Source: an uncultured Eubacteriales bacterium (GTDB taxonomy: Bacteria > Bacillota > Clostridia > Oscillospirales > QAKW01). From it: a DNA stretch of 17,227 bases. Every line of letters begins with the position of its first letter. Position 1 is the first letter of the stretch. A program made the position numbers and the translations under genes. The DNA lies in contig CAKRPM010000004.1 in assembly GCA_934378025.1 (NCBI GenBank), forward strand, positions 1 to 17,227. Reading direction: 5' to 3'. Of the stretch, positions 1 to 15,557 are shown in pieces. A model generated the notes under the pieces. That model saw only the letters and a program-made list of their open reading frames with translations, was not told the origin of the DNA and did not search any database.

Positions 1-77
1 CGCCGCGGGCACTGCTGCGCATCAGGCGTTCGCCTTCATATACATAAGTATATTCTATTTGCTGAGTGTTGTCAATT
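1..77 (-). pseudogene. Truncated second copy of the rhs core (5' end of an orphan Rhs cassette, runs off the window)
   Basis: These 77 bases match positions 2315 to 2391 of the full rhs gene without a single difference, in the same orientation; base 78 is the first mismatch and nothing upstream of it aligns. Read on the minus strand they encode the same peptide as rhs residues 1095 to 1119, beginning IDNTQQIEY. The copy therefore starts in the middle of the YD-repeat region. In frame upstream there is no ATG and no Shine-Dalgarno site between it and the terminator at 88 to 121, so it is probably not translated on its own. The match is cut by the window edge, so its true length is unknown. In Rhs and CDI loci such truncated core copies usually lead into an alternative toxin tip and immunity gene; that part is inference here. 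Confidence 0.85.
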
Positions 78-87
78 TTGGCACTTC

Positions 88-121
88 GGAAAAGAGCAAG
101 GGCGCACCGTTCGGCGCGCCC
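88..121 (-). terminator. Intrinsic terminator of the rhs-immunity unit
   Basis: On the minus strand GGGCGCGCC (121 to 113) pairs with GGTGCGCCC (108 to 100) through nine pairs including one G-T wobble, around the four-base loop GAAC. It is followed by the T-rich tail TTGCTCTTTTCC (99 to 88). It lies 20 bases beyond the stop codon of the membrane-protein gene and just before the orphan core copy, so it should end the rhs transcript and insulate the orphan copy from it. Confidence 0.75.
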
Positions 122-141
122 CTGCAACACAGAATAAATGC

Positions 142-564
142 TTATGATTGTTTGATTTGTAAATAATTTGTTGTTATAGTTACGATGATTAAGTTTACCA
201 TTAATGCGATTGCTATGCCGGCCATTACTGTATCACCAGCCACATATAAACCGTTTTCCGTATCAGCATGCTTGCAAAAAACAAACCGATATATAAGGTT
301 AATGCCTGCCATTCCCAAAAAAGTCACACTCTTTTTATCAAAACTGAACAAGTTATCTGCATTTTGTCCAAGCAAAAAATAATATATACCCGCAAGCACG
401 AGCATCAAATGCAAGGCAAACATCACGAATGCTATACCGAGATCATTCGTAAGCGTACCGCCCTCGATTTTTTTTGGATATACGGTTCCGTATATTGTTA
501 ATAAAGTTGCTATAACAATATTAAAATAAGCTATTATCCTCAAAAGTTTTGAATATATAATCAT
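142..564 (-). CDS. Small four-helix membrane protein, candidate immunity protein for the Rhs tip
   Basis: I do not recognise the family. The 140-residue product is mostly hydrophobic, with four likely membrane helices: about residues 6 to 28 (after YSKLL), 43 to 66 (LGIAFVMFALHL...), 78 to 97 (SVTFLGMAGINL...) and 108 to 134 (VAGDTVMAGIAIAL...). The short loops are polar. A GTG at 573 and an ATG at 570 are in frame but sit on or within two bases of the AAGAGG ribosome site; the ATG at 564 has an eight-base spacing and is preferred. It begins five bases after the rhs stop and has the same AT-rich composition as the 3' end of rhs, so the two look inherited as one unit. In Rhs and WapA systems the gene directly after the toxin is normally its cognate immunity gene. 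A membrane-bound immunity protein would suit a toxin acting at the cytoplasmic membrane. Gene reality is fairly secure; function is inferred from position. Confidence 0.8.
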   Translation of the reverse strand: MIIYSKLLRIIAYFNIVIATLLTIYGTVYPKKIEGGTLTNDLGIAFVMFALHLMLVLAGIYYFLLGQNADNLFSFDKKSVTFLGMAGINLIYRFVFCKHADTENGLYVAGDTVMAGIAIALMVNLIIVTITTNYLQIKQS

Positions 565-569
565 TTTCA

Positions 570-3500
570 TCACCTCTTTATAGTTTTTGCTTTCTTAACA
601 ACCGAATTATACAAACGCTGTATTCCTGAAAAAGCAGAGCTTGCCAACCAATAGTATGTTTTTGAATGTCCTGCACTTGCAAACTGTGAGCTCCAGCCAA
701 CGCCAACGGTAAAGCAAGAATTGCTCCATGAAGTATATGCTTTTACATGCCAAGCGCTTGCATACACGCCATTAAACCATTTTAAATAACTCTTGTAATT
801 TGTAAAATTAGAGTAACCAAATATTGCAAAAACACAAATCGATAAGCTAAAACCGCCTACGAGTGATTTTGGATTAAAAAGCAACGAAGGCTTAGCAATA
901 ATCTTTTTCAAAACATTTTTAGTTTTAGCACTGGATCCTATTCCACCACCTCCGTAAATATACACAAATGGGATAGTCCGCTTTTTACCTCCAACATTAA
1001 CACGCGAGGAAAAATACCATACAACTTCAATTCCTCCGGAAAGGCTTCCAATACCTACTTCAATTTGTATGCCGGCACCAATTAATAAAACAGGTCCCAT
1101 TCCCTCCGGATCACGTCCCTGCACCGGTTCATTAAAGCAATATGCGGCCAAATTATACCCTAATGGTTTTCCATTGGTGCCCAAAAGAATTGGTTCGTCC
1201 GCATTCAGGAATCTGCCGAGTTCGGGGTCGTAATAGCGGGACTGAAGGTAATACAGCCCGGTTTCCGTGTCGTAGTAATAGCCGCGGTAACGGTAGGGGT
1301 TGAGTTCGGCAATTTGCGTGGCGTCGTCGGACGCATATTCCGTGCATTTGCCCCACGCGTCATATTCGTAGCGCACCATCCTATTGCCGTCGCGATCCAG
1401 CACCTCGATAATGTCGCCCTGCAGATTCTTCCGGTAAAAATATGCCTCGCCGTTTACACTGATGCCATATAGCTCGTCCTCACGGTCATACAGCGGCACC
1501 AGCGTATACGCGTCAAACGTCTCGCAGACGATTTTGTCGCCGTCCAACACATAGCGATGCTCGCCCTTAGCGGTACGAATGCCTGCCGCATTGTACGAAA
1601 AGGTTACGCCGTCAAAGCTTTTCAGCTGCCGTCCCTTTTCCCAGCAAAGCGTATGCCCCAAATAATTCGTCGGATTGCCCTGTGCGTCATACGAAATGCT
1701 CTTGTTTCCGACGCCGGTCAACTGATCTTTCCACTTTGCATTGCCGTAGCTATAGCTTTTTCCGTTTTTGCTGAGGATATTGCCATAGCCGTCATAGGTC
1801 ATGGTATTGACGGTTTTGAAGTTTGCGGCGGTTACCCCTTTATGCCGCTCGGTCAGCAGCTGACCCAGTGCGTCATAGGTATATTCCGTGATTCCGTCCT
1901 CACTGTCGGTGACCTTGGTGATGCGCTCTTCCTCATCATATTCATACGTGAGGATTCGGCCGTTGTCAAAGGTGATTTGCCGTACCAGACGGGTTTGCGC
2001 CGTCGATTTGACCCGTGCATGATTTTGATGCTGCTCGCTGACCGTTCCCGTATAATACGCAAAGCGTCGGGAGGTCGCCGCAGTTCCCGTCTGCACCTCT
2101 TCAAATTCTTTTCGTCCCAAAAAGTCCGTCTTTGCATGAGCGGTGACCGTCCGTCCGTCAATCACCGTTTTGGTAACGACCGTGTCGTCCTCAGCATTTT
2201 CATAATAGACGGTCGGAACGTCGCACCCCCGGGTGACCTTTTGAATCAGCTTGCCCTCTTCGTCATAAATATACCGGGTAAAGTGTAAAACAATCTGCTC
2301 CCCGTATTCATTCACGCCGCGGGCACTGCTGCGCATCAGGCGTTCGCCTTCATATACATAAGTATATTCTATTTGCTGAGTGTTGTCAATTGTATCGGCG
2401 ACATTGCCCAAGCTGTCATACCGATAGGTATAGTCCGCCGTCAGCTCGCCCGCGGCATTATACCATTTTTCGGAGGTGATACGCCCATTTTCGTCATATA
2501 CCGCCTGCATGGTATCTCCGTTGGCATAGGTGACGGTCGAGGGCTGCTTGGCATACGCGCCATAGGTGTACTCAATCAGCTTTTCCGTTTTGCCCGCAAT
2601 GCCCACGCTTTTCAGCTTTTTCATTGCGTCATATTCCATCTGATAGCGCAAGCCGTCTCCGCGCACAATTTCTTTGGCGTTTCCGAACACGTCATAGCTG
2701 TAGCTGACGGAGGAGAGCGCATTGCCCTCACTGTCCTTCTGCGCAACGCTTGTGATTTCTCCACGGTCATTATATGTATATTCCGTCCGATTGCCCGTTC
2801 GGTCGGTGACCGCAGTATTTCGAGAGGTCAGGGCATCCACCGTATAAGCGGTATTATGTCCGCGAGCGTCGCTTTCCCCGATCAGGTCATTGCCGTTTTC
2901 GCCGTAGGAAAATGTACGATATACGGTTCCGAACTCGCCGTCTTTAAAGGTGGTTTCGGTCAACGCATTGCCGAAACTGTCTTTCAGCTCTTCAAATTCC
3001 GGTACGGTGGTTTCCAAGCTTTCAGGTTGATCGGAAGGGTCGGACTCAATTTCGGGAGCAACGACAAATTCCTCCGCACCCAAATCGGTTTCAATGCTGC
3101 TTCGAACCAGCTTGAAATCGGAAAAGAGTGCAAAACCGTAGTTTTTGTTATACACACAGCACACCTTAACGGACGCCACCGGCCGATATTCGTTTTTGCT
3201 GAATGAGAGGGTAAACAATTCCGGATCGGTCACATTGGTGGGCAATTCCAACGTATGAACTTCGGGGGCGGCGACGGCGGAAGCGTCGGCATAATAAATT
3301 TCTGCCATCAATTTGGGTGGTTCGATATCCACATTCCCACGATCGCGCAGCACCAATCCGCGCGACTGCACCTTTGCGGAAAAGGCAAAGGTTTCACGCG
3401 TGTCCGTCTTTTTGCACACCGCAACCTCTTGTCCCACCGTAACATCGCTATTCGGCTGTGCATTGATTTGCACCGTTTGATTTTGAATGGTGGTCTGCAG

Positions 3501-5672
3501 GCTTTTACTACTGCTCCATGTACCCTCCAAAAGATTATATTCGGTGGCAAAATCATTTTTCTCCAACTGCGCCGCGTCCACATAGACAGCGCCTGCACCG
3601 TCCGCCACAATTTGCACGGTTACCGCCTCAGTGCTTTGAAACGGCAGGATCAGGCGAACATACTGATCTCCGGTAGACGGCAAGTGCTCGCTTTCCGCCA
3701 ACACGGTTTGTCCGGACACAACCCGCAGATATACACCCGGTTTACCGCCGCCGAAATCGGCGTCCAGCATTTCATACGGTGTTGCTACCCGAACATACGC
3801 CGAAAATGTTCCGCGGAGGCAACTTGTACTTTGACCGACGCCGCAGGCCAGCGTATCCGTCTCAAAATACGAACCGTCCTCATACGTTTCCCGACTGTTG
3901 GTCGTAGCCATATACAGGGTGTTTTTCCCAAACAGAGCATTATTTTCATTGTCCACCAGATAGCGGGTCAGCGCCGCGCTGTTGCCTGTGATATTCCATG
4001 CCTCCAGGCTGTTAAAGTTGTGATCGGAAAGAAGATTGGCCGTCTCCACGGTATCTGCACGGGTTTCACTTTCTACATCGCCGTCCTCATTCATGCGATA
4101 AAAAATGACCGTATTTTCCGTTTCACTTTGTTTTTCAGTAATTTTGGCGCTTTTACCGGCAAGAGAATATTCAAGTTTGACATCCTCTCCGGCGGCAAAC
4201 GTCCCGTCCGTCTGGCGATTCAGCTCCGTAATATGCGTGACAAACCGATCCAGGTAGGTAACCTGCGTTTTGCTGACGATTTGTCCGTTTTCATCCGTCA
4301 AAACGATGCGCGTCGGCAAAGAATCGGCATATTCAATCTGCACCATTCGTCCGTCCCGATACGTCATACCGCTCAACCGTTTGTCCGAATAAGTATATTC
4401 GATATACGTTCCGTCCGGCGCTGTAATTTTGCTTAAAAAGTCGGCGCTGTATTCAAACGAAAACGTGCGGTTTGCGCCATCCGTTACCGACAGAATTTTT
4501 TCCTGCTGATAAGCAATATCCATGTGGTTGCCGTACAAATCCGAAATTTGAATCAACCGGCCGTCCTCGGAGAACTTATAGGTATCATCCCCTTGCTTCA
4601 GCGTGCGCTGACTTGGATTGTAATACATCTTTTCGTCCCCGATGTCCTCAAACAGAACCGTATTTCCGTCTTTCTTTTCGCTTTGCTTAAAGAACGTTTC
4701 CATGCCGTTTTCATCGGTATAGACATACCCGGTATAGGTGTCGCCCTCCTGCTCAAACTCGCAAGCACACATGCTCAGCATAATGTTTAACCGAAAGCCT
4801 TTGCCGAGCTTCATAGAGCTCCAATCGGCGGTATGCAGGCCAATGGCGCTGTTTTCCGTATAATTGCAGTCGGACAGTGCCCCCGCATACAAATGTTCAA
4901 GGGTCACCGGCATGCGGTTGCCCTCCCAGGCGAAATCCGGCACCCGCAAGTTGATATCCCCATTGTTCAGATTGACCTGTGCCGTCCCGAAATAGCCGAT
5001 ATTGTGGCTATATGACGCCTCCGAGGGAATATTTTTATAGCCGATTGTGTATGTTACCCGAAGCGAGGCGGATTCCGTCAAATGGATTTGACCGGTAAAT
5101 TCACTGCTCTCCGTCATCGATTTTAAAACGAACGCCCCCACTGCCTCATTTTTTACCATATCTTCATAAAAAGATGTGATATCCAGCGCATACTCGGCGC
5201 TTTCATTTTGCGACATTGCCTCCACCTCCAGCAAGGAGCCGATTTCCGGTTCGCTGGCGGTGCCGGGATTCAGCATGTCCAATACGCTGTATAGGCCAAA
5301 TCGCGGTTTTCCCTCTGTAGACACACTGCCGGCGTCCTGTTCCAGCAATATCTCCACTTTTTTGACTTTTGCGCCCAGCGGCATGTCCGGCAACTGAATA
5401 CTGCCGTAAATACGGAAAACGTTATGAAGCGTTTCGTCCCCCTCCTTGTGATGAAAAACGCCGAGGTTTCCGTCGCACGCACCGGACAGGTATCCGTTGC
5501 CCCAACTGTACAGTGCAAGCGGACTGTTTGCACTTGCCGATGTTCCGATCCCGATGCCCGAAAACACGGTTTGCAGACTGCCGTCACTCATTTGATACGT
5601 GTTTTCTCCCATCGACCCGATTGCTTTTACTTTTTGTCCTTCTTTTTGGTTTGTTACATAAATTTTCTCCAT
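570..5672 (-). CDS. Rhs/YD-repeat polymorphic toxin (WapA-like) with unknown C-terminal tip
   Basis: A 1700-residue protein of the Rhs/YD-repeat family, whose repeats build a shell that encloses and delivers a toxic C-terminal tip. The N-terminus (MEKIYVTNQKEGQK) is hydrophilic with no signal peptide or membrane helix. Residues about 80 to 210 look like a DNRLRE-type beta-sandwich. YD repeats follow at about 350 to 500, a carbohydrate-binding-like block at about 545 to 710 (ending VYVDAAQLEK), a second beta-rich block to about 860, an acidic linker (DQPESLETTVPEFEELKD), then the main YD array from about 905. The core closes with YYDPELGRFLNADE (about 1480 to 1493) and FNEPVQGRDPEG (ending at 1524). 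The last 176 residues are glycine- and aromatic-rich, AT-rich in DNA, and match no nuclease, deaminase or ADP-ribosyltransferase motif I know. The start is set by AAGGAAG (5688 to 5682), nine bases upstream. Family certain; tip activity and export route unknown. Confidence 0.95.
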   Translation of the reverse strand: MEKIYVTNQKEGQKVKAIGSMGENTYQMSDGSLQTVFSGIGIGTSASANSPLALYSWGNGYLSGACDGNLGVFHHKEGDETLHNVFRIYGSIQLPDMPLGAKVKKVEILLEQDAGSVSTEGKPRFGLYSVLDMLNPGTASEPEIGSLLEVEAMSQNESAEYALDITSFYEDMVKNEAVGAFVLKSMTESSEFTGQIHLTESASLRVTYTIGYKNIPSEASYSHNIGYFGTAQVNLNNGDINLRVPDFAWEGNRMPVTLEHLYAGALSDCNYTENSAIGLHTADWSSMKLGKGFRLNIMLSMCACEFEQEGDTYTGYVYTDENGMETFFKQSEKKDGNTVLFEDIGDEKMYYNPSQRTLKQGDDTYKFSEDGRLIQISDLYGNHMDIAYQQEKILSVTDGANRTFSFEYSADFLSKITAPDGTYIEYTYSDKRLSGMTYRDGRMVQIEYADSLPTRIVLTDENGQIVSKTQVTYLDRFVTHITELNRQTDGTFAAGEDVKLEYSLAGKSAKITEKQSETENTVIFYRMNEDGDVESETRADTVETANLLSDHNFNSLEAWNITGNSAALTRYLVDNENNALFGKNTLYMATTNSRETYEDGSYFETDTLACGVGQSTSCLRGTFSAYVRVATPYEMLDADFGGGKPGVYLRVVSGQTVLAESEHLPSTGDQYVRLILPFQSTEAVTVQIVADGAGAVYVDAAQLEKNDFATEYNLLEGTWSSSKSLQTTIQNQTVQINAQPNSDVTVGQEVAVCKKTDTRETFAFSAKVQSRGLVLRDRGNVDIEPPKLMAEIYYADASAVAAPEVHTLELPTNVTDPELFTLSFSKNEYRPVASVKVCCVYNKNYGFALFSDFKLVRSSIETDLGAEEFVVAPEIESDPSDQPESLETTVPEFEELKDSFGNALTETTFKDGEFGTVYRTFSYGENGNDLIGESDARGHNTAYTVDALTSRNTAVTDRTGNRTEYTYNDRGEITSVAQKDSEGNALSSVSYSYDVFGNAKEIVRGDGLRYQMEYDAMKKLKSVGIAGKTEKLIEYTYGAYAKQPSTVTYANGDTMQAVYDENGRITSEKWYNAAGELTADYTYRYDSLGNVADTIDNTQQIEYTYVYEGERLMRSSARGVNEYGEQIVLHFTRYIYDEEGKLIQKVTRGCDVPTVYYENAEDDTVVTKTVIDGRTVTAHAKTDFLGRKEFEEVQTGTAATSRRFAYYTGTVSEQHQNHARVKSTAQTRLVRQITFDNGRILTYEYDEEERITKVTDSEDGITEYTYDALGQLLTERHKGVTAANFKTVNTMTYDGYGNILSKNGKSYSYGNAKWKDQLTGVGNKSISYDAQGNPTNYLGHTLCWEKGRQLKSFDGVTFSYNAAGIRTAKGEHRYVLDGDKIVCETFDAYTLVPLYDREDELYGISVNGEAYFYRKNLQGDIIEVLDRDGNRMVRYEYDAWGKCTEYASDDATQIAELNPYRYRGYYYDTETGLYYLQSRYYDPELGRFLNADEPILLGTNGKPLGYNLAAYCFNEPVQGRDPEGMGPVLLIGAGIQIEVGIGSLSGGIEVVWYFSSRVNVGGKKRTIPFVYIYGGGGIGSSAKTKNVLKKIIAKPSLLFNPKSLVGGFSLSICVFAIFGYSNFTNYKSYLKWFNGVYASAWHVKAYTSWSNSCFTVGVGWSSQFASAGHSKTYYWLASSAFSGIQRLYNSVVKKAKTIKR
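573..578 (-). promoter_or_regulatory. Ribosome binding site of the candidate immunity gene
   Basis: AAGAGG, followed by TGAT, overlaps the end of rhs (last codon AGG and stop TGA). It is too close to the upstream GTG and ATG but eight bases from the ATG at 564, which decides the start. Its position implies coupling to rhs translation, so immunity would be made whenever the toxin is. Confidence 0.7.
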
Positions 5673-5693
5673 AATTTTCTACTTCCTTTCTTA

Positions 5694-5728
5694 TTTTTTG
5701 AGGACATCTTGATTGTACCCTCAAAAAA
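5694..5728. promoter_or_regulatory. Perfect 10-base inverted repeat around the likely rhs promoter -10 box
   Basis: TTTTTTGAGG (5694 to 5703) and CCTCAAAAAA (5719 to 5728) are perfect inverted copies separated by 15 bases. The spacer contains, on the minus strand, TACAAT (5717 to 5712), a good -10 box at a sensible distance before the rhs ribosome site. A nine-base tandem repeat AAAACGGAC (5725 to 5733 and 5734 to 5742) fills the place of the -35 region, where no good -35 hexamer is visible. A dyad over a -10 box suggests an operator for a dimeric repressor, or an RNA hairpin in a leader if transcription starts further upstream. The repeat is seen directly; its role is inference. Confidence 0.45.
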
Positions 5729-5757
5729 CGGACAAAACGGACAACTTTGCAAACAAT

Positions 5758-5790
5758 AAAAAAAGACCCGTGTTTAAAACACGGGCCTTT
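5758..5790 (-). terminator. Second intrinsic terminator after rplQ
   Basis: On the minus strand a GC-rich stem, GGCCCGTGTTT against AAACACGGGTC (11 pairs with one G-T wobble; the single central base means the top pairs open into the loop), is followed directly by seven T residues (5764 to 5758). It lies 11 bases beyond the first terminator and upstream of rhs, so read-through from the ribosomal operon should not reach the toxin gene. Confidence 0.85.
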
Positions 5791-5801
5791 TGCCGCCAAA
5801 C

Positions 5802-5837
5802 AAAAAAGGGTTGCAGAAAAATCTGCAACCCTTTTTT
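5802..5837. terminator. Intrinsic terminator of the ribosomal protein operon, symmetric
   Basis: A perfect ten-base stem, GGGTTGCAGA (5808 to 5817) against TCTGCAACCC (5822 to 5831), with a four-base loop. It is flanked by AAAAAA on the left and TTTTTT on the right, so a T tract follows the hairpin on either strand. It starts eight bases after the rplQ stop codon and ends the long ribosomal transcript; it could also stop transcription coming from the left. Confidence 0.9.
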
Positions 5838-5845
5838 ATATTTAC

Positions 5846-6187
5846 TTATACAAGCTCGATGATCGCCATTTCTGCAGCGTCGCCAACACGCGGTCCCTTT
5901 TTCAAAATGCGGGTATAGCCGCCGTTACGATCGGCATATTTCGGTCCGATCTCGGAAAACAGTTTGTTTACAACGTCTTCCTTGGTGATATAGGACAACG
6001 CCTGTCTTTTGGCGTGCAGTGTATCTTTTTTCGCCAAGGTAATCATTTTTTCAGCTACCTTGCGAACATCCTTCGCTCTGGTAACGGTTGTTTCCATAGA
6101 GCCGTTTTCCAGCAAAGATGTCACCAAACCTCTCATCATCGCTTTACGATGTGCGGTCGGTCTGCCAAGTTTTCTGAAACTTGCCAT
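5846..6187 (-). CDS. rplQ: 50S ribosomal protein L17
   Basis: L17 of the large subunit, which lies near the peptide exit tunnel. The 113 residues are the usual length for the short Gram-positive form and start with the family signature ([18 protein letters not shown] at residues 4 to 21). The basic N-terminal half is followed by the conserved segment [18 protein letters not shown], and the C-terminus has the usual [18 protein letters not shown]. It is the last gene of the alpha operon, 16 bases after rpoA with a ribosome site (AGGAGGTAGACTGCA before ATG), and runs into the terminator eight bases after its stop. Identification is secure. Confidence 0.98.
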
Positions 6188-9017: not shown

Positions 9018-9268
9018 GGTGTCAGTTCCTCCTTGTAATACATCTGAGTATAAGGCTTTAAGAAAGCCGTAACGGCGCGATTGGTACATGGATCGGGAAG
9101 GTTTCCTTTGGCAATCAACGCGATATGCTTTGTGTTTTTCTGCTTCGGCTTTTGCACTTTAACGCGCCTGCCGTCGGCAATCCAAACACGGCGATTTTCC
9201 TCGCGCATCACCAAGAAATATTTTCCCTTTTCCTTGCCCGCCGTCACTTGAACGACGCTGCCCGTCAT
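8999..9268 (-). CDS. KOW-domain RNA-binding protein (L14e-like)
   Basis: A small basic protein of 89 residues that opens with a KOW-type stretch ([19 protein letters not shown], residues 3 to 21), as in archaeal and eukaryotic L14e and in the small RNA-binding protein found between map and infA in many Firmicutes (YbzG of Bacillus subtilis is the likely counterpart). The middle is lysine-rich ([13 protein letters not shown]). Its role is not firmly known; a ribosome-associated or RNA-binding function is likely from the fold and the operon. The ATG overlaps the map stop by four bases (ATGA), and the 3' end overlaps infA by 19 bases, so it is wedged tightly into the operon. The tail after YYKEEL is read from the infA ribosome site and start and may be of little functional weight. 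Confidence 0.85.
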
Positions 9269-15233: not shown

Positions 15234-15557
15234 TTAAAAAGTTTCACCGCAGTCCTTGTTTTTGCAAACACGAACTTTGGTACCGTCCTCCAGGGTCTTG
15301 CTTCCGACTCTGGTGGGTTGTTGACACTTCGGGCAAACCAATTGAACTTTGCACGCATAAATTGCGCCTTCCGCTTCAATTCGTCCGCCGACCTCGCCCT
15401 GACGGCGGGGTTTAACATGCTTGGTAACCATGTTGGCCTTCTCAACGATTACCTTGCCCTCTTTCGGAGAAACCTCCAGAACCTTGCCGGTTCTGCCTTT
15501 GGATTTTCCGGAGATAACCATTACGGTATCGCCTTTTTTAACATGTAATTTACTCAT
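15234..15557 (-). CDS. rplX: 50S ribosomal protein L24 (with zinc-ribbon-like cysteines)
   Basis: L24 initiates 50S assembly and sits at the tunnel exit. The 107 residues contain a KOW motif (VKKGDTVMVISGKSKGRTGKVLEVSP, residues 6 to 31) and the usual VEKANMVTKHVKPRRQGEVGGRIEAEG. The tail has paired cysteines C75-x2-C78 and C98-x4-C103 (VCPKCQQ and CKNKDC), probably a small zinc ribbon; this tail occurs in many bacterial L24 proteins but is absent from Escherichia coli. It lies 12 bases after rplN. Confidence 0.97.
   Translation of the reverse strand: MSKLHVKKGDTVMVISGKSKGRTGKVLEVSPKEGKVIVEKANMVTKHVKPRRQGEVGGRIEAEGAIYACKVQLVCPKCQQPTRVGSKTLEDGTKVRVCKNKDCGETF

Follow-up and report, generated by a model that had tools for sequence, protein, structure and literature searches.

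A truncated rhs core at a probable contig end as the likely start of an orphan rhs cassette in an uncultured Clostridia-like bacterium

The 17,227-nucleotide stretch of DNA analysed here (the window) opens with a second, N-terminally truncated copy of the core of its own rhs gene, and we consider it likely, though well short of certain, that these first bases are the start of an orphan rhs cassette whose visible length was set by assembly at k = 77. The repeat, its truncation and its position are read directly from the window, and relatives supply both units of the same layout and another tip on a near-identical core. According to the model that we favour, the core fragment, which lacks the N-terminal part and stands behind the main rhs gene, an immunity-like gene and a terminator, would continue leftwards of base 1 through the core into a tip and an immunity gene of its own. 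A de Bruijn assembler run at k = 77 would end its contig with k bases of such an impassable repeat, whatever the true length, and recombination between the main and the orphan core would, by analogy with known systems, provide the full-length gene with the orphan tip. In gene direction, the order is core, tip, small hydrophobic gene, terminator-like hairpin, second core copy and window edge. The features are as follows.

570–5672, minus strand: main rhs gene, 1700 aa, with YD repeats and Rhs-associated core (open reading frame; Pfam and NCBIfam profiles)
2315–2391, minus strand: the 77 nt within the main rhs gene that recur at the window start (exact repeat)
573–1190, minus strand: variable Rhs tip, diverging from the protein P0001 just after GRFLNADE (protein comparison)
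142–573, minus strand: small hydrophobic protein, putative immunity partner, 143 aa from GTG 573 (or from ATG 570) (open reading frame)
96–125, minus strand: terminator-like hairpin of 13 pairs between the immunity-like gene and the core copy (hairpin search; minimum free energy)
1–77, minus strand: second rhs core copy, N-terminally truncated, which begins near residue 1094 of the main-gene product and is interrupted by the window edge (exact repeat; tblastn, 100% to the core)
47–75, minus strand: candidate promoter-like TTGACA-17-TATACT at the edge of the copy, 11/12 matches, with a second occurrence at 2389–2361
20–22, minus strand: candidate start, an in-frame ATG behind a weak Shine-Dalgarno-like TGAAGG (sequence scan, duplex energy)

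A repeat search of the whole window showed that bases 1–77 equal bases 2315–2391 on the same strand, with 0 mismatches and a start-to-start distance of 2314, and blastn of positions 1–600 against the window returned this pair as its sole match, with no similarity past base 77. The two methods agree with each other and with the initial annotation, which had described a perfect same-strand repeat whose similarity stops at base 78. The probability that an identity over 77 nt arises by chance is negligible. The first base of the window interrupts the copy, so that the repeat measures at least 77 bases; the initial annotation had taken this number as its length. Both searches place the onset of the copy near residue 1094 of the main-gene product; the N-terminal part is missing and similarity upstream of this point is absent. 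One further family of direct repeats of at least 20 nt occurs in the window (a 20-nt pair at 15523 and 15766, 90%), and no inverted repeats were detected at the settings that gave the 77-nt direct pair. Near-identical DNA relatives were found neither among phages nor among plasmids, and a peptide-pattern search of viral contigs yielded no relatives. A degenerate-pattern search of genome contigs likewise gave none, with a pattern that does match both window copies.

The product of the main gene contains YD repeats (PF05593, E = 2.3e-20) and an Rhs-associated core (TIGR03696, E = 4.7e-20), the domains of an Rhs/YD-repeat polymorphic toxin; toxins of this type have a variable, toxic C-terminal tip that the product of the neighbouring gene neutralises. 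It is identical to P0001 at 1485 of 1525 aligned residues (97% over the core), and P0001 carries a DUF4474 tip instead; this demonstrates no more than the occurrence of a different tip on a nearly identical core. Among the candidates searched, the window tip has two relatives, P0239 and P0238, the latter a 380-aa protein with little core. A Pfam search of the tip gave no family above the cut-off, and its predicted structure, built from three sequences, is poor (mean pLDDT 44.5). The protein encoded at 142–573 displays three hydrophobic peaks and has no match in Pfam or NCBIfam; its position suggests that it is the immunity partner of the Rhs tip, and we treat it as putative in this role. Folding of positions 80–135 resulted in a minimum free energy of -28.3 kcal/mol (z = -3.9). 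The G+C content is 52.0% in the core (1191–2391) compared with 37.8% in 78–1190, as expected for an exchanged cassette.

An orphan cassette had been postulated from the repeat, and its position after a tip, an immunity-like gene and a terminator, the layout in relatives and the existence of a near-identical core with another tip (P0001) are consistent with this proposal, but the orphan's own tip was never seen. The 2314-base deletion predicted for recombination between the two copies is arithmetically correct, whereas the tip that it would fuse to the core would sit beyond the window edge and did not turn up in the searches.

Assemblers commonly work with k-mers of 77 bases, SPAdes among them. 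When true repeats of 90, 120, 300 and 1200 bases were passed through a toy graph, the contig end displayed 73–77 bases of them at k = 77 and 51–55 bases at k = 55 (20 trials each), ends shorter than k arising because the missing bases happened to coincide with those on the opposite side. Overlaps left by SPAdes at contig ends are described in PMC5481147.

As a control, we considered 48 contig ends in the fetched Rhs loci, among them the two ends of the window, which were assumed to be contig ends as well. Exact matches of at least 17 bases inside the own locus were present for 7 of the 48, giving nine matches of 72, 55, 67, 141, 141, 20, 122, 77 and 77 bases, where the two of 141 are one pair seen from both sides. 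Five of the nine lengths are usual values of k; 72, 67, 20 and 122 are not. In the genome G008, six ends of four contigs were compared with the available stretches; five match, at 141, 141, 141, 119 and 99 bases, and one has no match; its contig C122, the contig of locus L014, contributes its 141 pair both to this count and to the 48-end control. The lengths 99, 119 and 141 are steps of the MEGAHIT k list as printed in PMC11018836 and PMC11155115, and a differing list (25,43,67,87,101,127) is given in PMC8035907. Since such lists differ, the agreement of a length with one of them carries limited weight.

The exact 77-base match at base 1 may be a contig-end overlap of k bases with k = 77. That the window spans an entire contig and was built at this k is our inference, as are the assemblers of the window and of G008, and the exact length of 77 was probably set by the stop of the assembly and not by biology. 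The initial annotation had taken the lack of changes to suggest a recent duplication or gene conversion. We reject this argument, because a contig end selects an identical stretch: in locus L067 (contig G095:C14), the first 77 bases match position 4123 exactly, yet over 215 bases the identity of the same copies is 91.6%. When a contig ends in a perfect repeat of 55, 77, 99, 119 or 141 bases, this may reflect assembly and not the age of a duplication.

A match of exactly k length, at a sequence end where errors gather and in a sample that was likely mixed, might also be produced by a misjoin, in which base 78 was connected to a core fragment from elsewhere or from another strain. The join is located directly behind the terminator, however, a place at which a core fragment is found in relatives too (locus L065 has the end of its small gene at 9115 and the start of the core at about 9397), and we regard a misjoin as improbable.

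Related genomes offer a view of how such loci are organized. By RpoA, the nearest genomes are G196 (92% identical) and G149 (91%), with 365 of 394 genomes of the order sample matched; this sample is centred on G007, the genome of locus L013. Rhs core matches were obtained in 5 of the 12 genomes of the nearest sampled family, and three of these five (G149, G095 and G109) contain units in series, with truncated core pieces followed by tip-like ends and small genes. In G095:C14, three units are alike for 36–37 residues past the core landmark and then diverge, one of the tips being Ntox44. Tips within arrays are mostly alike over their first 20–50 residues only, and one tip pair of G095:C9 retains weak similarity further on (26% over 122). 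Contigs also end inside core pieces in G149:C64, G095:C14 and G060:C29. A site-specific breakpoint was considered for G095:C9, where four fragments start at main-gene base 5538, and was rejected: the fragments share upstream sequence and hence look like copies of one orphan. The array of G095:C9 further comprises two very similar small genes of 274 and 276 aa (L066, 6206–7030 and 13712–14542) with exact common stretches of up to 93 bases. Just before truncated core fragments of G149 (L065, 9140–9365; L064, 2170–2225) lie short, palindrome-like elements that recur, among them one 22-nt exact pair.

Given that the visible bases number only 77, the copy might alternatively be a decayed remnant, a short core piece that has neither tip nor partner, and core pieces of about 45–55 residues do occur in G095:C9 (tblastn). 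These pieces still lead to a tip-like end and a small gene, however, and 0 mismatches in 77 bases do not suggest decay; we find such a remnant very improbable.

Other results count against the start of an orphan cassette as the preferred reading. No short Rhs product of the same species was detected among the matches listed (120 of 5933 proteins; best identity 72%), a search confined to candidate lengths of about 334–1062 aa. In addition, the end of the contig repeats sequence of its own interior, as would be expected equally of tandem copies or a circle. With a 2314-base unit in tandem or in the form of a free circle, core, tip and immunity gene would all recur unchanged to the left of base 1 and the contig would lead back into itself, as it does. 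In G008, the main rhs contig C62 ends in 141 bases with which the cassette contig C122 starts and ends. On the other hand, in those arrays of relatives that can be read, the tips past the shared motif mostly differ, and a finite array should show an exit from the loop, of which none was seen, so that we judge tandem copies or a circle unlikely. Should the cassette be amplified, its copies would form a pool of donors from which tips are exchanged, and each copy could be expressed by means of the promoter-like box and the ATG at the repeat edge.

The copy had been described as having no start codon or ribosome site, which is not exact, as the sequence contains an in-frame ATG at 22–20 behind TGAAGG as candidate signals. 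The Shine-Dalgarno duplex energy of TGAAGG is -4.7 kcal/mol; the rhs start reaches -5.9 and rplQ -12.1 kcal/mol. Both the ATG with TGAAGG and the promoter-like box are equally present in the main gene. Boxes with at least 11/12 matches number 86 in the 1,521,796 bases of the fetched loci (both strands; some loci overlap). We rejected the promoter-like box as evidence of expression: 2.6% of 500 synonymous shuffles have it at the same place, and among the relatives' sites, main-gene sites included, only 1 of 14 has a box with at least 10/12 matches. Orphan rhs-CT/rhsI modules usually lack translation start signals.

Earlier work has described orphan modules of rhs and cdi, arrays of them and the way in which they fuse to the main gene (PMC3967940, PMC3150448, PMC12704120), and the window copy is probably a further example of this type. 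As reported in PMC3967940, the orphan rhs-CT/rhsI of Salmonella Typhimurium LT2 has 522 bp at 95% identity in common with the main gene, and recombination was proposed to fuse the main gene and the orphan tip. Like the copy in the window, the LT2 orphan is a truncated rhs fragment that follows the main rhs/immunity pair and shares its core (PMC3967940). In LT2, however, the tip and the immunity gene are known and tested (PMC3967940), whereas in the window 77 bases are visible and the tip would lie beyond the edge; moreover, the bacterium differs and the mode of delivery probably does too. The orphan cdiA-CT/cdiI and rhs-CT/rhsI modules described in PMC3150448 form arrays of displaced tip modules with core of varying length in front, and in Yersinia pestis Microtus 91001 a deletion of 3,557 bp fused an orphan tip to cdiA. 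These arrays belong to Proteobacteria and several are complete, in contrast to the window with its single copy, begun and cut (PMC3150448). A Gram-positive case is WapA-CT2 of Streptococcus suis (PMC12704120). According to that source, WapA-CT2 has a visible tip, whose expression in Escherichia coli inhibits growth, whereas the orphan tip of the window would lie beyond its edge; the main gene of S. suis is also far larger and has LysM and other domains (PMC12704120), none of which Pfam found in the window gene.

Our analysis suggests that an uncultured, Clostridia-like family has arrays of rhs tip cassettes downstream of the main gene, which would be a suitable setting for following the exchange of tips. 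Short-read assemblies of Rhs arrays break at the point where the next cassette begins, and orphan tips may consequently be under-counted in metagenomes.

Some further observations concern the surroundings of these genes. In the cassette contig C122 of G008 (L014, 1–3534; 3534 nt), the two ends are joined by a shared stretch of 141 bases, in which the main rhs contig C62 of the same genome also ends (L090, 1–141). As judged by eye, the Rhs protein of the window lacks a hydrophobic N-terminus (5600–5672), unlike the main rhs genes of G149 (L065) and G008 (L090), where it is present. In G149, the rpoA and Rhs matches are situated on separate contigs. In the window, the rhs gene begins directly behind an operon of ribosomal-protein genes (5672–6187), which includes rplQ and rpoA and extends to 17227, and strong terminator-like hairpins at 5761–5837 lie between the two.
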